The notes under the pieces are model-generated. The model was given only the letters and a program-made list of their open reading frames with translations. It searched no databases and was not told the origin of the DNA. DNA of 34,961 nucleotides from a virus. The first letter of the stretch is position 1, and each line of letters begins with the position of its first letter. The stretch covers positions 1 to 34,961 of the IMG/VR virus record IMGVR_UViG_3300020596_000073. One strand, written 5' to 3'. Shown here piece by piece: positions 3,977-28,053 of the stretch. Made by a program: the position numbers and the translations under genes.

Positions 3977-5803
3977 ATGGCGTCCCAGGAACTTCGGCCC
4001 TACCAGGAGAAGATGCTCGACAGTATCGTCGCCGCACGCCTCGCCGGCCAGAACCGCGTACTGGTCCAGGCGGCCACCGGGGTCGGCAAGACGACCGTGT
4101 TCTCGTCCTTGCCCACCCGGCTCGGCCCATGGCTCGACTCCCTGCCGGCGAAGCATCGCAAGATGCTCGTCATCGCGCACCGCGAGGAGCTGATCGCCCA
4201 AGCCGTGACGCGTATCCGCCAGAACAACCCTGGCCTGATCGTTACGAAGGAAAAGGGAAACGAATGCGCCAACGTCTACTCCGACGTCATCGTGGCCAGT
4301 ATCCAAACCCTGGACGCCCGCGACCAGCGACGGCTGCACCGGCTCCTGGGCTACATGCAGTTCGGGCTCGTGATCATAGACGAGTGCCACCACGCCTCGG
4401 CCGATAGCTACCGGCGCGTGCTTGCCGTCCTGGGCTTCCTCCCAGACCACGGCGGCGTGGCCCCCCTAGACTCGCTGTTGTCGAGCACGAAGCGCACCGA
4501 GGCCATTGCGGCCCGGATGAACGCCTGGGACGCCGTGGCGCCCCAGGACCGGCTCCTGGTGGGCTTCACCGCCACGCCCAACAGGACGGACGCGGTCGGG
4601 CTGTCGGTCGTGTTCCAAACGATCGCTTTTTCCTATCCGATGAAGGCGGCCATCAAGGATGCGTGGCTGGCCCCGCCCCGGGCGCTGGCGGTCGCCACCG
4701 ACGCGAGCCTTGAAGGCGTCAGGACGACCGCAGGCGAGTTCAACCAGAAGGACCTAGCGACGGCCGTCAACACGCCGCAGCGCAACGCCCAGGCGCTCCT
4801 GGCGTGGCAACAGCACGCGCTGGGACGCCCCACGCTCGGGTTCACCGTGGACGTCGCCCACGCGCACGCCGCGGCCGACCTGTGGCAGAAGGCGGGCCAT
4901 CGCTTCCTGCCCATCAGCGGCCAGACCCCGGACGACGACCGCCGGATGCTGCTGCGCCAGTACACCGAGGGCCAGATCGATGGCCTCTTCAACGCCATGT
5001 TGTTGACCGAGGGCACCGACCTGCCGCGCACGTCGTGCATCCTCCACCTGAAACCGACGAAGAGCGCCACGCTCTACGAGCAGATGACCGGCCGCGGCCT
5101 GCGCCTGTTCCCCGGCAAAGACGACTGCCTGATCCTCGACATGGTCGACATCAGCCGGAAGCACAGCCTGATGGCCGCGCCGGTGCTCTACGGCCTACCG
5201 CCGCTCATCAACGCGAAGGGGCAGCGGCTCGACGTGCTCGAGGCGGACATCGCGGCGCTGCGCGACGAGCACGCAGGCGTGGATCTCGATGCCATTCTCT
5301 CGAGCCTCACCGACCTCGACCAGCTCCGCTCGCGGTTGGTCTCGGTCAACGTCTTCGACGTGCAGCCCTTGGACCCCAGCGTGCTCCAAGCGACGCACCT
5401 GGACTGGATGCGCGCCGGGGAAGTCTACCGCCTGAACTACCCGTGGAGCGACGGCCATGAGACGGTGCGGGTGTCTCAGGACATGCTGGGCCACTGGGAC
5501 GTCGCCGTCGAGTTCCACCCACGCGCGGCGGATGCGACGGCCCTACGCCAGCGCACCATCGCGTCACAGGTCGCCAACCTCGCCACGGCCGTGATGCTCG
5601 GCGAGTCCTACGTGACCGAGCAGCGCGGCAGCGTCGCGAAAATGAAGAGCCGCACCGCGCGCTGGAAGGGGAACCCCGCGAGCACGAAGCAGATGGAGTT
5701 CCTGAAGCGTCTCCGCGTGCCGTTCAACGCGGCCACGCTGACCAGCGGCGCCGCCGGATCGCTCATCGACAGCGCCCTACACCACCGGCGTGGCCGGCGC
5801 TAG
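3977..5803 (+). CDS. SF2 DEAD/DEAH-type DNA helicase
   Basis: A 608-residue superfamily 2 helicase, expected to unwind or remodel DNA during replication or recombination. Motifs in order: Q-like LRPYQ (6-10), Walker A ATGVGKTT (33-40), Ia VIAHREEL (about 65-72), Walker B DECH (135-138), III FTATPNR (197-203), a RecA2 domain with motif V LLTEGTDLP (342-350) and motif VI EQMTGRGLR (368-376). The DECH box instead of DEAH is a common variant. The last 43 residues (STKQMEFLKRLRV, TLTSGAAGSLIDS) form the small helical tail seen on phage helicases, comparable to the end of the annealing protein. The start at 3977 lies four bases after the previous stop. It is the last gene before a 500-base gap. Confidence 0.9.
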   Translation: MASQELRPYQEKMLDSIVAARLAGQNRVLVQAATGVGKTTVFSSLPTRLGPWLDSLPAKHRKMLVIAHREELIAQAVTRIRQNNPGLIVTKEKGNECANVYSDVIVASIQTLDARDQRRLHRLLGYMQFGLVIIDECHHASADSYRRVLAVLGFLPDHGGVAPLDSLLSSTKRTEAIAARMNAWDAVAPQDRLLVGFTATPNRTDAVGLSVVFQTIAFSYPMKAAIKDAWLAPPRALAVATDASLEGVRTTAGEFNQKDLATAVNTPQRNAQALLAWQQHALGRPTLGFTVDVAHAHAAADLWQKAGHRFLPISGQTPDDDRRMLLRQYTEGQIDGLFNAMLLTEGTDLPRTSCILHLKPTKSATLYEQMTGRGLRLFPGKDDCLILDMVDISRKHSLMAAPVLYGLPPLINAKGQRLDVLEADIAALRDEHAGVDLDAILSSLTDLDQLRSRLVSVNVFDVQPLDPSVLQATHLDWMRAGEVYRLNYPWSDGHETVRVSQDMLGHWDVAVEFHPRAADATALRQRTIASQVANLATAVMLGESYVTEQRGSVAKMKSRTARWKGNPASTKQMEFLKRLRVPFNAATLTSGAAGSLIDSALHHRRGRR

Positions 5804-6304
5804 ATCCCTCAAGGAATCAGGAGCGTACTTGCTATCGGAGGACTAAAGGAGGGAAGATGCCCGGCAACGCGAAGGGAAGCAGGCCCTCGCGCCGCCGGGC
5901 GACCAGATGGTGTGGGGGATGACTCCCACTTCCCGCCCAGCCAGTTCGGAGAGTATACCCTGCTTAGTCGATGGTGGGGAGCCAGGACGACGCCACCTAG
6001 CGCCATCGATTACCGCACGGACCACACAACTCGGGTGACTACGGAGTGTGGGCAGGTCGGGCCGGGAGGTCTGGAGCCTGAGTAGAGGGGGACGCCGTAA
6101 GCCGCGTCTCGAAAAGTCCGGACCATCCGACGCGCTGTGCTAACGGGCAGCGTCGGGCCACGAAAGGGCGATCGGCCATTGGCTGTCGCAACCCAACGGG
6201 GCAGGCTTTCGCATCCTCTCTTCAGAGGGTATGGGGAGCCGTCTGCCTCGTGGGCTCCTGACCTTGGCTAATCTCATCACCACATACTCGAAGGAGCAGC
6301 GAGC
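5804..6304 (+). other. 500-base gene-free, highly structured region (candidate structured RNA)
   Basis: No convincing protein gene fills this stretch, although the genome is otherwise packed. It contains a series of inverted repeats: 5912-5929 (GTGGGGG/CTCCCAC, ATGA loop, 7 pairs), 5965-6012 (TAGTCGATGG/CCATCGATTA, 10 pairs with one G-U), 6022-6051 (CCACAC/GTGTGG), 6089-6110 (7 pairs), 6127-6156 (CCGACG..CTG/CAGCGTCGG, 9 pairs, 2-base bulge), 6215-6228 (CCTCT/AGAGG, CTTC loop) and 6235-6258 (GGAGCC/GGCTCC). GAAAAGTCCGGACC at 6111-6124 resembles the CR-I element of bacterial RNase P RNA, and GACCTTGGCTAATC at 6260-6273 loosely resembles CR-V. A weak promoter (CTGACC 6258-6263, CATACT 6283-6288, 19-base spacing) could serve the next gene. 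An origin of replication is an alternative reading. Confidence 0.4.
5857..5922 (+). CDS. Possible 21-residue peptide with strong ribosome binding site
   Basis: AAAGGAGG at 5845-5852 is four bases ahead of an ATG at 5857, and the frame closes at a TGA at 5920-5922. The peptide is Arg/Gly-rich (PSRRRATRW near the end). The stop codon falls in the loop of the 5912-5929 hairpin, which could be a control feature or chance. The good ribosome binding site is the only support; composition alone cannot decide. Confidence 0.2.
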   Translation: MPGNAKGSRPSRRRATRWCGG

Positions 6305-6838
6305 ATGGCAACCAAGACGAAGAACGAAGACGACGAGACTCTCGCTACGATGCAGCGCAGGATCGCACGAGCGACAAAGATCGTGGACGCGCTAGACGCG
6401 CTGGACGCCCAGCGGGCCGATCTCAGCGAGCAACTGGCGAAAGTGCTCAAGGGCGAGCAGGCCATCGGGGATCTGGTGAAGATCGCCGCGAGCACGTTCA
6501 GCCAGGCGTGGGAGCGGCGTTATCGGTCGCCCTACGCGTTCCTGGCGTTCAAGGACGTGCCGAATCTGAAGCGACTGATCAAGCAACTGGGGATCGAGGA
6601 ACTGGCGCGGCGGATGCAGCGGTATCTGCTGTCGCACGATCTGTTCTTCACCAAGGCGCGGCACTCGTTCGGCGTGTTCGTCGCGACGGTCAACCAGCAC
6701 GCCGAGGCATCCGGTGACGCGGCCCTGGGCGACTTCCTCTCCGATGAGCCTGCACCGAGCGATTGCCGGCACACCCCGCCTTGCACCACGCAGGCCGCCT
6801 GCACGAAGGCATCGAACAAAGAGCGGCTCTCATGGTGA
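6305..6838 (+). CDS. Replication-module accessory protein, coiled-coil N-terminus
   Basis: 177 residues with an AAGGAGCAG site upstream. Residues 8-52 are a predicted coiled coil (AKIVDALDALDAQRADL, EQLAKVLKGEQ). The middle holds a Trp/Tyr-rich helical domain (FSQAWERRYRSPYAFLAFKD, LKRLIKQLGIEELARRMQRY, LFFTKARHSFGVFVATVNQ; about 65-130). Similar domains are found in phage proteins next to replicative helicases (family knowledge, not searched). The C-terminus carries Cys residues (CRHTPPCTTQAAC). It overlaps dnaB by seven bases, so a role with the helicase, perhaps loading, is plausible but unproven. Confidence 0.72.
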   Translation: MATKTKNEDDETLATMQRRIARATKIVDALDALDAQRADLSEQLAKVLKGEQAIGDLVKIAASTFSQAWERRYRSPYAFLAFKDVPNLKRLIKQLGIEELARRMQRYLLSHDLFFTKARHSFGVFVATVNQHAEASGDAALGDFLSDEPAPSDCRHTPPCTTQAACTKASNKERLSW

Positions 6839-8280
6839 CGCGCGCCGCGAGGGCCGCCACGGAGTCTGATCGCGTTCTCCCCCACAACCTCGACGCGGAG
6901 CGCGCGGTGCTGGCGTCGATCCTGGTCGACAACGCCGCGTATGCGAAGGCGGCGCCGCTCGTGCGCGAGGCGTCGTTCTATCGGCTGGCGCACCAACTGC
7001 TGTTCGCCAGCCTCGCCCGGCAACTCGAGCGGCCGCACGGGCTCGCGGACCCGCTGACGACGCAGGCCGACCTCGTGAGGCATGGCACCCTCGAGGACGT
7101 CGGCGGGATGCTCTACCTGTCGGAGCTGTTGACCGGCGCCACACGCGCCACGAACATCGCGCACTACGCCACACTGGTGGCCGAAGCGAAGCAACGGCGC
7201 GAAATCATCGCGGCTGGCCAGGCCATGCTAGCGCAAGCGTTCGATGGCGATGACGTCGCCACGCTCCTCGCTGACGCGGACTCGGCGATCATCCAACTCC
7301 GGCACGGCACCGGTGGCGCGCTCCTGCACACGTCGGAACTCGGCCGGCAACTCTCGGCCGACCTGGAATACCGCTTCGCGCACCGCGGCGAGCTACTGGG
7401 TGTGCCCACGGGCTTCTCCACCCTCGACGTGCATACCGGCGGCTGGGAAAACGGCGATCTCGTGGTGGTGGCCGCGCGCCCGTCGATCGGGAAGACGAGT
7501 CTCGTGCTCAAGAGCGCATGGACGGCGGCCGAGTCGCACCGGCGCGACGGCACGCAGCGTCGCGTCGCGTTCTTCTCGCTCGAGATGAAAAAGTTGCAGT
7601 TGATGTATCGCCTCATGGCGCTGCTCACGGGCATCCCGATCAAGCGCCTCCGCGGCGGCGGCATCCCCGAGCACGTCACGCACGAGTGGGCGGCGGTGGC
7701 GCAGGCGCAGGAGCGCATGGCGACGATGGGCCTCTTCATTGACGACGCGGCCGACAAACCCTACGTCTCAACCATCCGGGGCAAGTGCCGGCAGATGATG
7801 GCGGACGGCGGGCTCGACCTCGTGATAATTGACTACTTCCAGTTGATGAAAGGCGAACCACGGAAAGGCGGCGAGACGAACCGCAGCGCGGAACTCGCCG
7901 CGGTGAGCCGCGAACTGAAGCTGATGGCCGGAGAACTCAACGTCCCGGTGATGCTGCTGTCGCAGCTCAACCGCAACAGCACGATCCGTGACGACCCGCG
8001 CCCGAAGCTGTCAGACCTTCGCGACACCGGCGCGCTCGAGCAGGATGCCGACGTGATCGCGTTTTTGCACCGGAAAGACCACAAGAACAGCGGCCCGACC
8101 GCCTTTATTATCGACAAGGCGCGGAACCACGACACCGCGGACATCTGGCTGACCCTGGACCGCCAGACGACCCGGTTTGAGGAAATGCCCGAGGGCTACA
8201 CCGCGCCGGAGCCCACGGCAGAGGAGAAAGCCGCCACCAAAAAGGCCATGATCATCGCCAGGAAGCGGGTGACAATTTGA
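6832..8280 (+). CDS. dnaB: DnaB-like replicative DNA helicase
   Basis: A 482-residue hexameric replicative helicase that would unwind the phage replication fork. The N-terminal domain (about 16-150) begins with VLPHNLDAERAVLASIL, typical of DnaB. The ATPase domain follows the linker VPTGFSTLDVHTGGWENGDLV in part (191-210). Walker A is ARPSIGKTS (215-223), Walker B LVIIDYFQLM with D334, then LLSQLNRNS and the arginine-finger region LSDLRDTGALEQDADVIAFL. Walker A has Ala where DnaB usually has Gly (GRPSMGKT); the catalytic Lys and Thr are intact. ATG 6832 is chosen; an in-frame TTG at 6763 would overlap the previous gene more. It ends in an ATGA overlap with the methyltransferase. Confidence 0.93.
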   Translation: MVTRAARAATESDRVLPHNLDAERAVLASILVDNAAYAKAAPLVREASFYRLAHQLLFASLARQLERPHGLADPLTTQADLVRHGTLEDVGGMLYLSELLTGATRATNIAHYATLVAEAKQRREIIAAGQAMLAQAFDGDDVATLLADADSAIIQLRHGTGGALLHTSELGRQLSADLEYRFAHRGELLGVPTGFSTLDVHTGGWENGDLVVVAARPSIGKTSLVLKSAWTAAESHRRDGTQRRVAFFSLEMKKLQLMYRLMALLTGIPIKRLRGGGIPEHVTHEWAAVAQAQERMATMGLFIDDAADKPYVSTIRGKCRQMMADGGLDLVIIDYFQLMKGEPRKGGETNRSAELAAVSRELKLMAGELNVPVMLLSQLNRNSTIRDDPRPKLSDLRDTGALEQDADVIAFLHRKDHKNSGPTAFIIDKARNHDTADIWLTLDRQTTRFEEMPEGYTAPEPTAEEKAATKKAMIIARKRVTI

Positions 8281-23441: not shown

Positions 23442-23516
23442 CGCAGGGTAGCTCAGTGGCAGAGCGCCAGGCTCATAACCTGGAAGCCGCGGGTTCAATT
23501 CCCGCTCCTGCAACCA
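23442..23516 (+). tRNA. tRNA with CAT anticodon, initiator-like (C1xA72 mismatch)
   Basis: 75 bases fold as a full cloverleaf with encoded CCA (23514-23516). D stem GCTC/GAGC (23451-23454, 23462-23465). Anticodon stem CCAGG/CCTGG with loop CTCATAA and anticodon CAT at 23474-23476. T stem GCGGG/CCCGC with loop TTCAATT. The acceptor stem pairs 2-71 to 7-66 (last pair G-U), while position 1 (C23442) faces A23512. This unpaired C1xA72 is the hallmark of bacterial initiator tRNA. The anticodon stem has two, not three, of the initiator GGG/CCC pairs, and the D stem is elongator-like. It may be a phage initiator tRNA, an elongator Met, or a lysidine-type Ile tRNA. TATGCT at 23430-23435 could be its -10 box. 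Confidence 0.93.
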
Positions 23517-23524
23517 ACGCCCAA

Positions 23525-23986
23525 ATGAGCCGCCCCTTCAAGCGCATCGAGAGCGAGTATTCGCCGCAGCAGATCGCGAAGCTGCACATCCGGCAGGTCA
23601 TCGAGGGTATCTGCGCCGACGACCTGATCCTCTGCGAAGTCGTCGCCCAGGGTGAGAAGGTGTGGCGGGCAACGATGCGGGAAGCGTTCGCACCAGTCAT
23701 GGACCTGCCGGACGAAATCTGCGACAGGGCCTATCTGTTTTTCTGCGGCGCGGTGCAGGCGCGGTTCACGCTCGACCAGGATCACGCGGAGGCCATGCAC
23801 CTGGCTGGCGCGTTCCTCGACCAGGTGGAGCCCGTGACCCCGCCCACGCAGGCCGAGATCGACAAGTCGTGGGTCATCGAAGAGGCGAGCCACCCGGACG
23901 CGATCCGCCAGCAGTACGGCGACAAGTCCCCGCAGCAGTGGCTGGACGAGGCCATCGCTGACGGCCACGACAAGGGGATCGACTGA
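23525..23986 (+). CDS. Hypothetical protein before the portal
   Basis: 153 residues, starting nine bases after the tRNA and overlapping the portal start (TGATGG). It is mostly helical (YSPQQIAKLHIRQVIEGIC, LPDEICDRAYLFFCGAVQARF, AEIDKSWVIEEASHPDAI) and acidic at the end. The constant place between terminase and portal suggests a minor head or packaging protein, but I do not recognise it. There is no obvious ribosome binding site; the tRNA 3' end lies there. Confidence 0.62.
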   Translation: MSRPFKRIESEYSPQQIAKLHIRQVIEGICADDLILCEVVAQGEKVWRATMREAFAPVMDLPDEICDRAYLFFCGAVQARFTLDQDHAEAMHLAGAFLDQVEPVTPPTQAEIDKSWVIEEASHPDAIRQQYGDKSPQQWLDEAIADGHDKGID

Positions 23987-26754
23987 TGGCCACCACTCCA
24001 GGGCGCCGGCCCCCGTCGCTCCCCCGCATCGATCCGGTTGAGGGCACCAACAACGCCTACGGCGTGGACATGGTCAGCCGCGGCAGAGGCGACTACGACG
24101 CGATCGTGGAAGCCGGCGGCGACCCAGACGCGACCCCCGTCACGCCCGACGAGATCGCCCGCGCCGACGCCCTCCGCAAGCGGCACGCCCGCGCTATCCG
24201 CAACTTCAAGACCTCGAGCAGCGCCGACGAAGACCAACGCCGCGCCGAACTCGACGACCTGAAGTACGCGCGCGCCCGCCTCGAGGACCACTGGACGGCT
24301 GGCGACATCACGCGGCGCAGCGGCGAGACGAATGGCGAGTCTGGCAAGCCTGGCTACGGTCGCCCCATGCTGGTGCTCGACAAGCTGGCCGTGCCGAAGC
24401 GGCAGACGATGAACGAGGCCCGCAACGCGCGCCTCAGTATCCGCATCAAGGCGAAGGCGGGCCGGGCGACGAAGAAGAACGCCCAACTGGTGCAGGACGC
24501 GGTGCGGGCCATTGAAGTCGACAGCCGCGCGCACATCGCGCGCGACTGGGCCCTCGACCGCGTGATCACCTGTGGCCGCGGCTACTACCGCATCGAAACG
24601 AAGTACGCCAACGACAAGGACCGCGACCTCGACATCGTCGTCAGTCGCATCCTGAACCAATTCGCGGTCTACCCGGACCCCTGGCGCAAGGAGCCGGACG
24701 GCTCGGACATGAAATTCTGCCTCATCACCGAGGACATCCCGACACGGGACTATCCAGACCGCTACCCGGACAGCAAGCTGGCGCTCAAGATCCGCAAGGC
24801 GCTCGACGAGCAGACCGATGGCGAGATTCTGGCCGGGTCGGTAGTGGAAGACGGGACCGACGCGCAGCACGAGGGCGGCGCGCTCACGGGCACCGGCGAC
24901 ACGCCGCCCGGCTGGATTACCGAGGCCACCATCCGCGTCGCCGAGCACTTCTATGTGGAGTACGAGCGCCGCACCAAGCTATGGGTGCCGACCAGCCAGG
25001 GCCATCAGGAGATGTGGGCCGACGAGATCCCGCCGACCGTCCAACTCCCGCCCGACGTCCTGAAGCGCGAGATCGTCACGCCGGTGGTCAAGTGGGAAGT
25101 GCTCAACGGTGAAGAAATCCTCGACGAGGAGCAGTGGCCCGGCCGCTTCATCCCGATCGTGGAAGTCGTCGGCGAGGAACACAACGTCAACGGCGAGCGG
25201 ACCTTCAAAGGCATCTACACCGTGGGCAAGGACGCGAATCGGTCCTACGAGTATCACCGCTCGGCCCAGGTCGAAGCCGTGGCGCTCGCCCCCCGCGCGC
25301 CCTACATCGCCGCCGAGGGCCAGACCGAGCTCTATCCGGAGTGGGACACGGCGAACTCCGAGAATCACTCGGTCCTGGTCTACAAGCCGACGAGCCACGA
25401 CGGCCATCTCATGCCCCCGCCGCAGCGCAACACGTCTGAGCCGGCGATTCAGGCGATCACCATCGCCGCGCAAGCCGCCGACCAGGACATCAAGGACATC
25501 ACCGGCCGGCACGAAGCGTCCCTCGGCCAATACTCGAGCGAGCGCAGCGGCAAGGCGGTGCAGTCGCTCCAGCAGCAGGCCCAGGTCGGCAGCTCGCATT
25601 TCCTCACGAACCTGGCCGAAATCTCGATGGCCTACGAAGCGCGCATCATCGTGGACCTCCTGCCCCACATCTACGACCGCCCCGGCCGCGTCATGCGCTT
25701 GCTCGGTGAGCGCGACCAGGAGGAGTACGCGATCGTCGGCGCCCCCTTCGTCCAGACCCCGGACGGGCCGCAAGCCGTGCCGGTCCCCCCAGGCATGCCG
25801 CCGGAGGGCATGGTCGGCCAGTCGGTGCAGATGCCGGGGATGGCGAAGCCGCAGCGCACGAAACTCTACACCTTCGACGCCGACGCCGATTACACCATCG
25901 CCGTGGGCGTCGGGCCAAGCACGCAGAGCGCGAAGGACCAGAACAGCGAATCGATCCGCGCCATCATGGAAGCCGCCCCCGCCCTCGCGCCGCTCATGGC
26001 CGACCTGCTCGCCTCGCAGATGGAAGGCGACATCGCGGAGCAACTGTCGGCCCGCATCAAGGCGGTGCAGCCCGCAATCGCCAACCTGCCGGGCGACGAG
26101 GACGACGACTCGGGCATGCCGCCGGAGGCGATGGCGAAGATCCAGGGTCTCACCATGCAGTTGCAGCAGATGCAGCAGCAGCTCCAGGAGGCCATGACCG
26201 AGATTCAGACCCGGCGCAGCCAGTACCAGACGCAACTGATGATCGCGCAGGAATCCAACGCCTCCCGCGAGCGCACCGTGCTCGCCACGACGCGCACGCA
26301 ACTGGCCATCGCGCAGATGAACGGCGGCGGCAAGGTGGACGTCGCCACGCTGCAGGGCGAGATCGACGCCGCGATGGGCGAGTCGCAGCAGGCGCACGAC
26401 GTCCTCATGGCCCGGCTCGAGGCGTCCCTCGAAGCGCAGCTCTCCGAGGACCAGGACCAGCGTGCCGCCCGTGCCGGCGACCGCGACGAGACGCGCGCGG
26501 TGCGCGGCGACGTGCGAAAGGAATTGATGGCCGGCAGCGCGGCGAGTCGGCAGCGCGCCCTTGCCCGCGAGCAGCGCGAGGGCGACGAGCAGCGCGCGAG
26601 CCGCGACGGCGTGCGACAGGACGTGCAGGCCGAGCGCGCCGACGCGCGGAAAGGCGCCCTCGCGGCAGCCACCGACCGCCGACAGGCCCAGATCGCCGAG
26701 GCGGCCACTGGCCGGGAGGCGCGCGCGACGAAGCCGAAAGCGGCAAAAAGTTGA
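23986..26754 (+). CDS. Portal protein, P22-like
   Basis: 922 residues, forming the ring through which DNA enters and leaves the head. Recognisable portal features: LVLDKLAVPKRQTMNEARNA (around 129), VDSRAHIARDWALDRVITCG and GYYRIET (about 180-205), NQFAVYPDPW, and the region with DIKDITGRHEASLGQYSSER (about 500-520) typical of P22-type portals. From about residue 715 a long Gln-rich coiled coil follows (LTMQLQQMQQQLQEAM), then an Arg/Asp/Ala-rich helical tail to the end. P22 portal is 725 residues, so about 200 residues are extra at the C-terminus, perhaps a longer internal barrel. The TTGACA of promoter P5 overlaps its stop. Confidence 0.9.
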   Translation: MATTPGRRPPSLPRIDPVEGTNNAYGVDMVSRGRGDYDAIVEAGGDPDATPVTPDEIARADALRKRHARAIRNFKTSSSADEDQRRAELDDLKYARARLEDHWTAGDITRRSGETNGESGKPGYGRPMLVLDKLAVPKRQTMNEARNARLSIRIKAKAGRATKKNAQLVQDAVRAIEVDSRAHIARDWALDRVITCGRGYYRIETKYANDKDRDLDIVVSRILNQFAVYPDPWRKEPDGSDMKFCLITEDIPTRDYPDRYPDSKLALKIRKALDEQTDGEILAGSVVEDGTDAQHEGGALTGTGDTPPGWITEATIRVAEHFYVEYERRTKLWVPTSQGHQEMWADEIPPTVQLPPDVLKREIVTPVVKWEVLNGEEILDEEQWPGRFIPIVEVVGEEHNVNGERTFKGIYTVGKDANRSYEYHRSAQVEAVALAPRAPYIAAEGQTELYPEWDTANSENHSVLVYKPTSHDGHLMPPPQRNTSEPAIQAITIAAQAADQDIKDITGRHEASLGQYSSERSGKAVQSLQQQAQVGSSHFLTNLAEISMAYEARIIVDLLPHIYDRPGRVMRLLGERDQEEYAIVGAPFVQTPDGPQAVPVPPGMPPEGMVGQSVQMPGMAKPQRTKLYTFDADADYTIAVGVGPSTQSAKDQNSESIRAIMEAAPALAPLMADLLASQMEGDIAEQLSARIKAVQPAIANLPGDEDDDSGMPPEAMAKIQGLTMQLQQMQQQLQEAMTEIQTRRSQYQTQLMIAQESNASRERTVLATTRTQLAIAQMNGGGKVDVATLQGEIDAAMGESQQAHDVLMARLEASLEAQLSEDQDQRAARAGDRDETRAVRGDVRKELMAGSAASRQRALAREQREGDEQRASRDGVRQDVQAERADARKGALAAATDRRQAQIAEAATGREARATKPKAAKS

Positions 26755-26781
26755 CAGCGCCAACCGTTTGACGTGTAGAGT
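26751..26781 (+). promoter_or_regulatory. Promoter P5 (TTGACA, 19-base spacer, TAGAGT)
   Basis: TTGACA at 26751-26756 overlaps the portal stop, and TAGAGT at 26776-26781 has four of six matches. The spacer of 19 is long, and the only inverted element is weak. A transcript would begin about 26788, so translation should start at ATG 26800 and not 26782. It would drive scaffold and coat genes. Confidence 0.4.
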
Positions 26782-26799
26782 ATGAGCCGAGCAGGGACT

Positions 26800-28053
26800 A
26801 TGGCCGACACCCCCACCCCGATTGACGACTTCGCCGCAGCCCCCACGGTGGTCTCCGATGACGACTTCGTCATCACCGATGGCGGGCAGATCCGGGAAAC
26901 GGCCGAGGAACTCCGCCACACCCTGAGTCACGACACGCCGGCCGACGTGGCGCCAGGCGACGAGACGCCCCCCGGCGAGCGCATCGAGCACGCGGACGGA
27001 TCGGTCGAGTCCACCGGCGCCGGCAGCGCGAAGGCCGAGAAGGCCGAGAAGGCCACCGAGGCCGTCAGCAAGCCGAAGCGCACGGTCGAGGGGCGTGTGG
27101 CCGAACTCCAAAAGGAGATCGCCACCAGGACGCGCGAGAAGCACGACACCATCCGCGAGCGCGATGCCGCCGCCAAGGAACTCGCGGACATCCGCGCCCA
27201 ATTGGCCGCCGCCCGCGAGCAGGCCCGCCCCGGCTTCCCGCGCGACACCCCCGTGGTGCCCGCCGACGCCGCCGCCGCGCCGGCCACGCTCCCGAAGAAG
27301 CCCGTCTGGAAGGAATACGACGACGCGGGCAAGGACTGGGACGTCTTCAATGACGATCTCGAGGCCTACCGCGACGCGCGCTCGGCCGCCTCGGAAGGCG
27401 TGGTGAAAGGCCACTTCGCCGCCGAACTCGCGCGCGTGCAGGCGGAGGCGGTCGCCCGCGTCGAGAGCATCGAGGCGCGCGCAGCCGAAGCCACCATCAA
27501 CGCCGGCCTGCAGGCCCGCGTCGACGCCGTCAAGGCCAGCACCCCCGACTTCGCCACCGCCATGGCGGACTTGCGCGCCGCGGGGGTCGAACAGACACCG
27601 TTCATGCGCGACGTGGTGCGGATGCACCCCAAGGGCGCCGATCTGCTCTACGCGCTCGGCAAGAACGTCGAATCCGCGGCGATCCTGCAATCGCTGGACT
27701 TCTCGACGGTGATGTTCGACGCCATCATGGAGTCGGACGATCCTACGGCCGTGCTGTTGCATCTCGCGGAAAGCAGCGAGACGTTTGAACAGATTCGGTC
27801 GCTCGATTCGGCATCTGCCGGAAGGCGGATCGCCGCGCTAGATGCGCGCCTCTCGTCCTCGTCCTCGCCCGAACCCCGTGCCTCCGGCTCGCGGCGTTCC
27901 GGTACGACTGTCTCACGCGCTGCAACCCCCATCCGGCCGGTGGGCGCGAGCAGCAAGGCGTCAGTAGTGGACGACGAGGACGACGAAGGCGAATCCTTCG
28001 AGTCGTGGATGTCCCGCGAGAACAAGCGGGACGCCGATCACGGCCGTCGCTAG
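26800..28053 (+). CDS. Scaffolding protein
   Basis: 417 residues between portal and coat genes, the standard place of the scaffold in P22-like phages. The N-terminus is acidic and disordered. A Lys/Glu/Ala linker (KAEKAEKATEAVSKPKRT) is followed by a coiled coil (VAELQKEIATRTREKHDTI, ERDAAAKELADIRAQLAAA). The middle is helical, and the C-terminus has a Ser/Arg-rich tail ending in an acidic and then basic patch (DDEDDEGESFESW, RENKRDADHGRR). A basic C-terminal end binds coat protein in P22 gp8. An in-frame ATG at 26782 is possible, but promoter P5 would not include it. Confidence 0.8.
   Translation: MADTPTPIDDFAAAPTVVSDDDFVITDGGQIRETAEELRHTLSHDTPADVAPGDETPPGERIEHADGSVESTGAGSAKAEKAEKATEAVSKPKRTVEGRVAELQKEIATRTREKHDTIRERDAAAKELADIRAQLAAAREQARPGFPRDTPVVPADAAAAPATLPKKPVWKEYDDAGKDWDVFNDDLEAYRDARSAASEGVVKGHFAAELARVQAEAVARVESIEARAAEATINAGLQARVDAVKASTPDFATAMADLRAAGVEQTPFMRDVVRMHPKGADLLYALGKNVESAAILQSLDFSTVMFDAIMESDDPTAVLLHLAESSETFEQIRSLDSASAGRRIAALDARLSSSSSPEPRASGSRRSGTTVSRAATPIRPVGASSKASVVDDEDDEGESFESWMSRENKRDADHGRR

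Follow-up and report, generated by a model that had tools for sequence, protein, structure and literature searches.

A predicted family of large structured RNAs at the head of the replication genes of uncultured phages

In this study, we explored a 500-base gap in the genome of an uncultured virus (IMG/VR record IMGVR_UViG_3300020596_000073, 34,961 nucleotides, hereafter the window), lying between a helicase gene and further replication genes. Our findings, drawn from comparative sequence analysis, point to a new family of large structured phage RNA, absent from Rfam, whose structure is kept in at least 26 related genomes of a phage group that is uncultured and comes mostly from soil. The predicted fold is conserved and combines an S1/S2 pseudoknot with a contact between the loops of hairpin F and stem B (table 1). 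What such an RNA does is harder to establish; on balance we lean, with confidence no better than even, toward an RNA of about 400 nt, transcribed from the + strand ahead of the downstream gene p6 and acting in cis on the operon or the origin.

The gap and its relatives

The interval 5804-6304 is exactly the space between the stop codon of an SF2 helicase gene and the next ORF, of 177 aa (p6), in a module ordered helicase, gap, p6, DnaB. The preliminary description had taken it for a 500-base non-coding region between helicase and replication genes, and so it appears: the eight ORFs that can be drawn in it (43-65 aa) returned two weak, isolated matches, against 24 for neighbouring p6 as positive control, and a conserved ORF crossing the gap was rejected, as the eight lack conserved counterparts. 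The structured part proved somewhat narrower than the interval first delimited, at about 5859-6259. Elsewhere in the window, a tRNA-Met (CAT) gene lies about 470 bases upstream of a P22-like portal gene, an Mgm101-type (Rad52-like) annealing protein adjoins a PHROG exonuclease at 675-2352, likely as a recombination pair, and a 927-aa ORF on the - strand (24979-27762), antisense to the portal gene (23986-26754), probably owes its existence to high GC content.

Searches of IMG/VR with the helicase, p6 and DnaB gathered approximately 37 distinct uncultured viral contigs with the element or a comparable non-coding gap, the close set sharing 44-53% helicase identity with the window. Nearly all relatives have a non-coding gap before p6 (that of L040 being unresolved), and the gaps nearly always belong to this same module. 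Among these gaps nucleotide identity is almost nil, yet short motifs recur in unchanged order, the pattern expected of RNA structure. A scan of 23 viral records found the element in 16, one copy in each; a pattern scan added one phage type (L159/L166) and a second scan no further one. Among isolated phages, a nucleotide search gave chance matches only; p6 found no match there, so the phage group appears to be uncultured. Under strict filtering and without a positive control, the RNA was found neither in six bacterial genomes encoding relatives of the helicase nor in 396 genomes of the phylum of an Acidobacteria MAG (L060).

About 11 loci are divergent and unmatched by the core model described below (L003, L004, L006, L014, L019, L022, L029, L040, L041, L042 and L068); several resemble the rest in having hairpin A and a promoter-like start, and their 3' domain may have been replaced or have strongly diverged. 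Structured gaps with a different 3' part are seen in L003 (4140-4700), L004 (2600-3350), L022 (7110-7540), L042 (7050-7500) and L068 (4160-4480), each with a promoter-like start, most with the 5' hairpin, and none matched by the core model.

Covariation and the conserved fold

Hairpins by themselves prove little in DNA of 65% GC. Folded as a single sequence, the + strand of the gap gave z -3.05, beating each of 100 dinucleotide shuffles, and the - strand gave -1.66; measured at 16 loci, namely the window and those of 15 relatives, the syntenic element averaged -3.42 (+) and -2.87 (-), against 0.01 for control windows of the same loci. Since the 16 controls span -3.6 to +2.9, two of them falling below -3, folding energy alone is not decisive.

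The evidence that carries the family is covariation. Simple descriptor scans gave too many chance matches; a covariance model took their place, trained on a seed alignment of 12 sequences that left the window out (93.9% of cells paired; double-sided changes in 24 of 29 pairs; covariation 0.578 versus 0.195 +/- 0.025 shuffled). The best match of this model in the unseen window is 6022-6159 (30.4 bits, E 3.9e-4), where synteny would place the element. Other unseen members were recovered in their own gaps on the + strand, with scores of 97 (L027), 82 (L159), 70 (L012), 56 (L025), 55 (L032), 38 (L031), 36 (L030), 33 (L011) and 30 bits (L026), and with weaker matches in L141, L062 and L009; off-target matches stayed at or below 16 bits in the first search, the second yielding two at 21 bits on unrelated contigs. 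Once 25 members were aligned, 92.9% of the cells in the 29 pairs were standard, 27 pairs had changed on both sides, and covariation rose to 0.665, versus 0.187 +/- 0.015 in shuffles (0/500) and at most 0.104 in slid versions. Thus, independent members were found by a model blind to them, and their pairs show compensatory changes, the two observations by which we recognised a family. A second model, with the window in its training set, scored the window at 56.9 bits and L010, outside the training set, at 34; a 26.1-bit match on the - strand of L041 (3041-3175), outside the gap and with several broken pairs, is taken as chance. The paired columns contain 37 G-U cells and 9 A-C cells (raw counts, uncorrected for nucleotide composition), an excess that favours an RNA read from the + strand.

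The helix order is alike in 20 of 21 loci parsed per sequence, L141 being the unclear one: stem B, S1 5', UGGRGCC, S2 5', S1 3', GCAGGGGA, hairpin P4, ACGANAG, S2 3' and hairpin D. Pseudoknot S1 is absent from the covariance model, so its covariation is no fitting artefact. Two stems singled out in the preliminary description belong to this conserved set: the 10-pair stem, joining TAGTCGATGG (5965-5974) to CCATCGATTA (6003-6012) with one G-U, is hairpin F, and the stem at 6127-6156, which has seven contiguous pairs (CCGACGC/GCGTCGG) and two more past a small internal loop, is hairpin D. The loop of hairpin F is conserved (GGGAGCC..GCCACCGG), and across 16 loci its contact with the loop of stem B is 95.3% paired, with double changes in three of four pairs, as in CCGG/CCGG, CCAG/CTGG (L069), CTGG/CCAG (L159) and CCGA/UCGG (L007); the compensations are few and the contact is imperfect in the window. 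Hairpin A is taken to bound the element on the 5' side and the E/X pairing on the 3' side. Behind hairpin A, many loci, including several unmatched by the core model, carry hairpins B' and C, with an ATTCTA-type loop. Parsing of individual sequences found stem E and X/X' in the window and in several relatives, compensatory variants among them; because the alignment of stem E is out of register, this parsing is what suggests that their crossing is a probable second pseudoknot at the 3' end.

Table 1. Positions of the structural elements and neighbouring features in the window
Feature	Position	Strand	Remarks
SF2 DNA helicase, 608 aa	3977..5803	+	upstream of gap
Degenerate copy of upstream DNA site CTASATNTTGKGG	5800..5812	+	CTAGAT alone retained
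Weak promoter-like site, TTGCTA, 18 nt, GAAGAT	5829..5858	+	at about the position of the relatives' better TTGATC-N17/18-TATAAA
Whole structured RNA element, about 400 nt	5859..6259	+	inferred ends; conserved and GC-rich, flanked by two AT-rich dips
Hairpin A, GC-rich, 5'	5859..5900	+	in nearly all relatives, most of the divergent loci included
Short hairpin at the place of the relatives' hairpins B'/C	5912..5929	+	relatives' ATTCTA loop not kept
Hairpin F	5965..6012	+	conserved loop GGGAGCCA..GACGCCACC; covariation 0.590 vs 0.220 +/- 0.039 shuffled (0/500)
F-loop segment pairing with stem-B loop	5996..6000	+	CCTAG with CTCGG 6030-6034, 4/5 pairs
Stem B (CCACAC/GTGTGG) and loop	6022..6051	+	in covariance core
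Pseudoknot S1	6053..6080	+	CAGG 6053-6056 with CCTG 6077-6080; 3/3 core pairs covary in 25 members
Stem S2	6068..6124	+	GGTCTGGA 6068-6075 with TCCGGACC 6117-6124; encloses hairpin P4 (6089-6110)
Hairpin D	6127..6156	+	loop related to conserved GTGTCGTCAC
Hairpin G (GGGCGA..TCGC..CCC)	6166..6194	+	aligned by eye in relatives with GGGCCACGAACGGGCGACGGC
Stem E and crossing X/X'	6196..6259	+	E 6196-6204/6243-6251; X/X' GGGAGCC 6234-6240 with GGCTCCT 6253-6259
p6, conserved 177-aa helical protein, C-terminal Cys/His motif	6305..6838	+	putative helicase loader or replisome organiser
DnaB-like replicative helicase	6832..8280	+	downstream of p6

The surrounding DNA is also patterned. Most relatives have a TTGATC/TTGACA-N17/18-TATAAA-like site about 190-235 nt before stem B, where the core starts, with hairpin A right behind it; the best scores reach the 95% level of the background in 15 of 26. 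In the window the promoter copy is degenerate and a consensus sigma-70 site was not found. Directly upstream of the promoter-like site, most relatives keep the conserved DNA site CTASATNTTGKGG, nearly always as the sole good match in the sequence examined. Local GC content dips at both ends of the element, the downstream AT-rich dip lying about 225 nt past the core start, and simple criteria revealed no terminator between element and p6. The preliminary description had offered a structured RNA or an origin region. The former is strongly supported by covariation among homologues, the + strand G-U excess and the consistent promoter-like start of the relatives. As for a possible origin, the element does stand at the head of the replication genes, with a conserved DNA site upstream and an AT-rich dip downstream; this fragment has no GC-skew switch or minimum at the gap, and no iterons were identified in this connection.

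Comparison with known RNAs

Neither the window nor 17 relatives gave a gathering-score match in Rfam 15, and permissive searches likewise gave none: GRIK4 3'UTR, RsmW and AS-traI, as well as BTH_s1 on L033, lie far below gathering score and were rejected. There was no Rfam match to 6S, RNase P or tmRNA, and ARAGORN found no tmRNA in the window. The S1/S2/P4 arrangement resembles P3/P7/P8 of a group I intron or P1/P2/P4 of an HDV-like ribozyme, and both were therefore considered; both were dropped, having no Rfam match and missing the other expected stems, and for an intron there is no interrupted gene, the helicase gene having its own stop and p6 starting afresh. A published description of the element was not found in the open-access literature.

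Among large RNAs of phages and prophages, the element recalls GOLLD and ROOL, which are phage-encoded and form RNA cages (PMC12286853): it too is phage-encoded, hundreds of nucleotides long and elaborately folded with long-range contacts, and has no known protein partner. Unlike them, it has no Rfam match, measures about 400 rather than some 600-800 nt, and sits among replication genes, whereas they are often near tRNA genes; the only tRNA gene of the window is at 23442-23516. OLE RNA is likewise large and highly structured with conserved loops; it is bacterial, however, and acts with dedicated proteins, whereas our element stands in a phage context and lacks an Rfam match. The RNA II primer of ColE1-type plasmids is likewise a structured RNA of similar length, transcribed from a promoter beside replication functions; the likeness to our element, whose promoter is a putative one, is of length and setting. 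Leader RNAs such as HK022 put and EAR are promoter-proximal and on the strand of the downstream operon, the identity of the first ORF being immaterial; our element is far larger, and the likeness is one of position and strand.

Possible roles of the RNA

The cis-acting reading that we favour at even confidence would run as follows. Transcription would start from a promoter belonging to the element, placing the 5' end at hairpin A, and the element would form the first part of a transcript running on into p6 and other replication genes. It might then act at its own locus as a leader controlling transcription of the operon or RNA processing or, alternatively, as a primer RNA for the origin, a role with which the AT-rich dip behind the element is compatible, these last steps being the least certain. 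Context is what favours cis action: the element lies on the operon strand, at the head of the replication genes, with no terminator recognised by simple criteria, and often has p6 first behind it. Specifically, the next ORF after the element is p6 in about 15 of 25 loci; in about 10 of 25 at least one ORF intervenes, which makes it unlikely that translation of p6 is all that is controlled. The structure of p6 is confidently predicted (pLDDT 89.9); a fold search in the PDB returned nothing significant, and weak matches in a viral library include proteins named replication initiators.

Cis action is also favoured by a phage with another packaging module (L159/L195; IMGVR_UViG_3300043178_000071, 43.5 kb), which keeps the RNA (4770-4893, 98.5 bits) directly upstream of a 126-aa protein with a C-terminus weakly like that of p6 (hhalign probability 18%), a likeness that may reflect a loader motif. 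This suggests that the RNA may travel together with a p6-like gene. The phage has an SU10-like portal, Terminase_3 and a helicase-methyltransferase (methylase) fusion; a DnaB match was absent within the 14 kb read. Against our favoured reading count the degenerate promoter of the window, the roughly 11 gaps unmatched by the core model, and the fixed position itself, which may reflect mere shared descent.

Nearly as likely, though falling short of even, is a trans-acting RNA: processed, free and possibly self-associating, alone or as a ribonucleoprotein in the manner of GOLLD, ROOL and OLE, it would act away from its locus on replication or on the host. Such ornate RNAs are what the size and loop-loop contacts resemble, to the detriment of the cis-acting reading; several long-range contacts, the conserved loops AACCGGGAGCUGCA, UGGRGCC and GUCGUCAC, the promoter-like start and retention in a phage of different backbone speak for it as well. 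The self-complementary CCGG loops could allow dimer contacts, as in oligomer-forming RNAs, and GOLLD and ROOL set a precedent (PMC12286853). The lack of an Rfam match or of a recognised terminator or processing site weighs against it, as do the fixed place in front of the replication genes and the distance of 17 kb to the sole tRNA gene of the window.

A bolder form of cis action, which we regard as unlikely, is an origin cassette made up of a promoter, the pseudoknotted RNA of 400 nt, an AT-rich stretch and the gene for a helicase loader, which would have passed between phages that differ in packaging module and in which the RNA would mark or prime the origin. It is improbable that the structure acts as DNA, in a single-strand initiation site or as DnaB-loading origin hairpins: the replication module, the AT-rich dip past the core start and the upstream DNA site, conserved almost always in single copy in the sequence examined, would suit this, yet the G-U excess (uncorrected for composition) points to a + strand RNA, the promoter-like start keeps a fixed spacing, no GC-skew switch occurs here, and intricate pseudoknots are unusual in known single-strand initiation sites. 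Chance hairpins or an unannotated gene, which hairpin-rich DNA of 65% GC and the wide spread of the folding controls might suggest, are already refuted by covariation unmatched in 500 shuffles, by the recovery of left-out members and by the lack of a conserved ORF.

If the origin cassette held true, an origin would be run by a large self-folding RNA instead of a DNA-binding initiator. Large structured phage RNAs are few and their function is mostly obscure; the element adds a candidate family whose role is directly testable, given that its secondary structure is solid and includes a loop-loop contact, that its place within the replication module is constant and that a candidate partner protein is encoded nearby. 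Our findings illustrate that gaps in packed phage genomes can conceal RNA families missing from Rfam.
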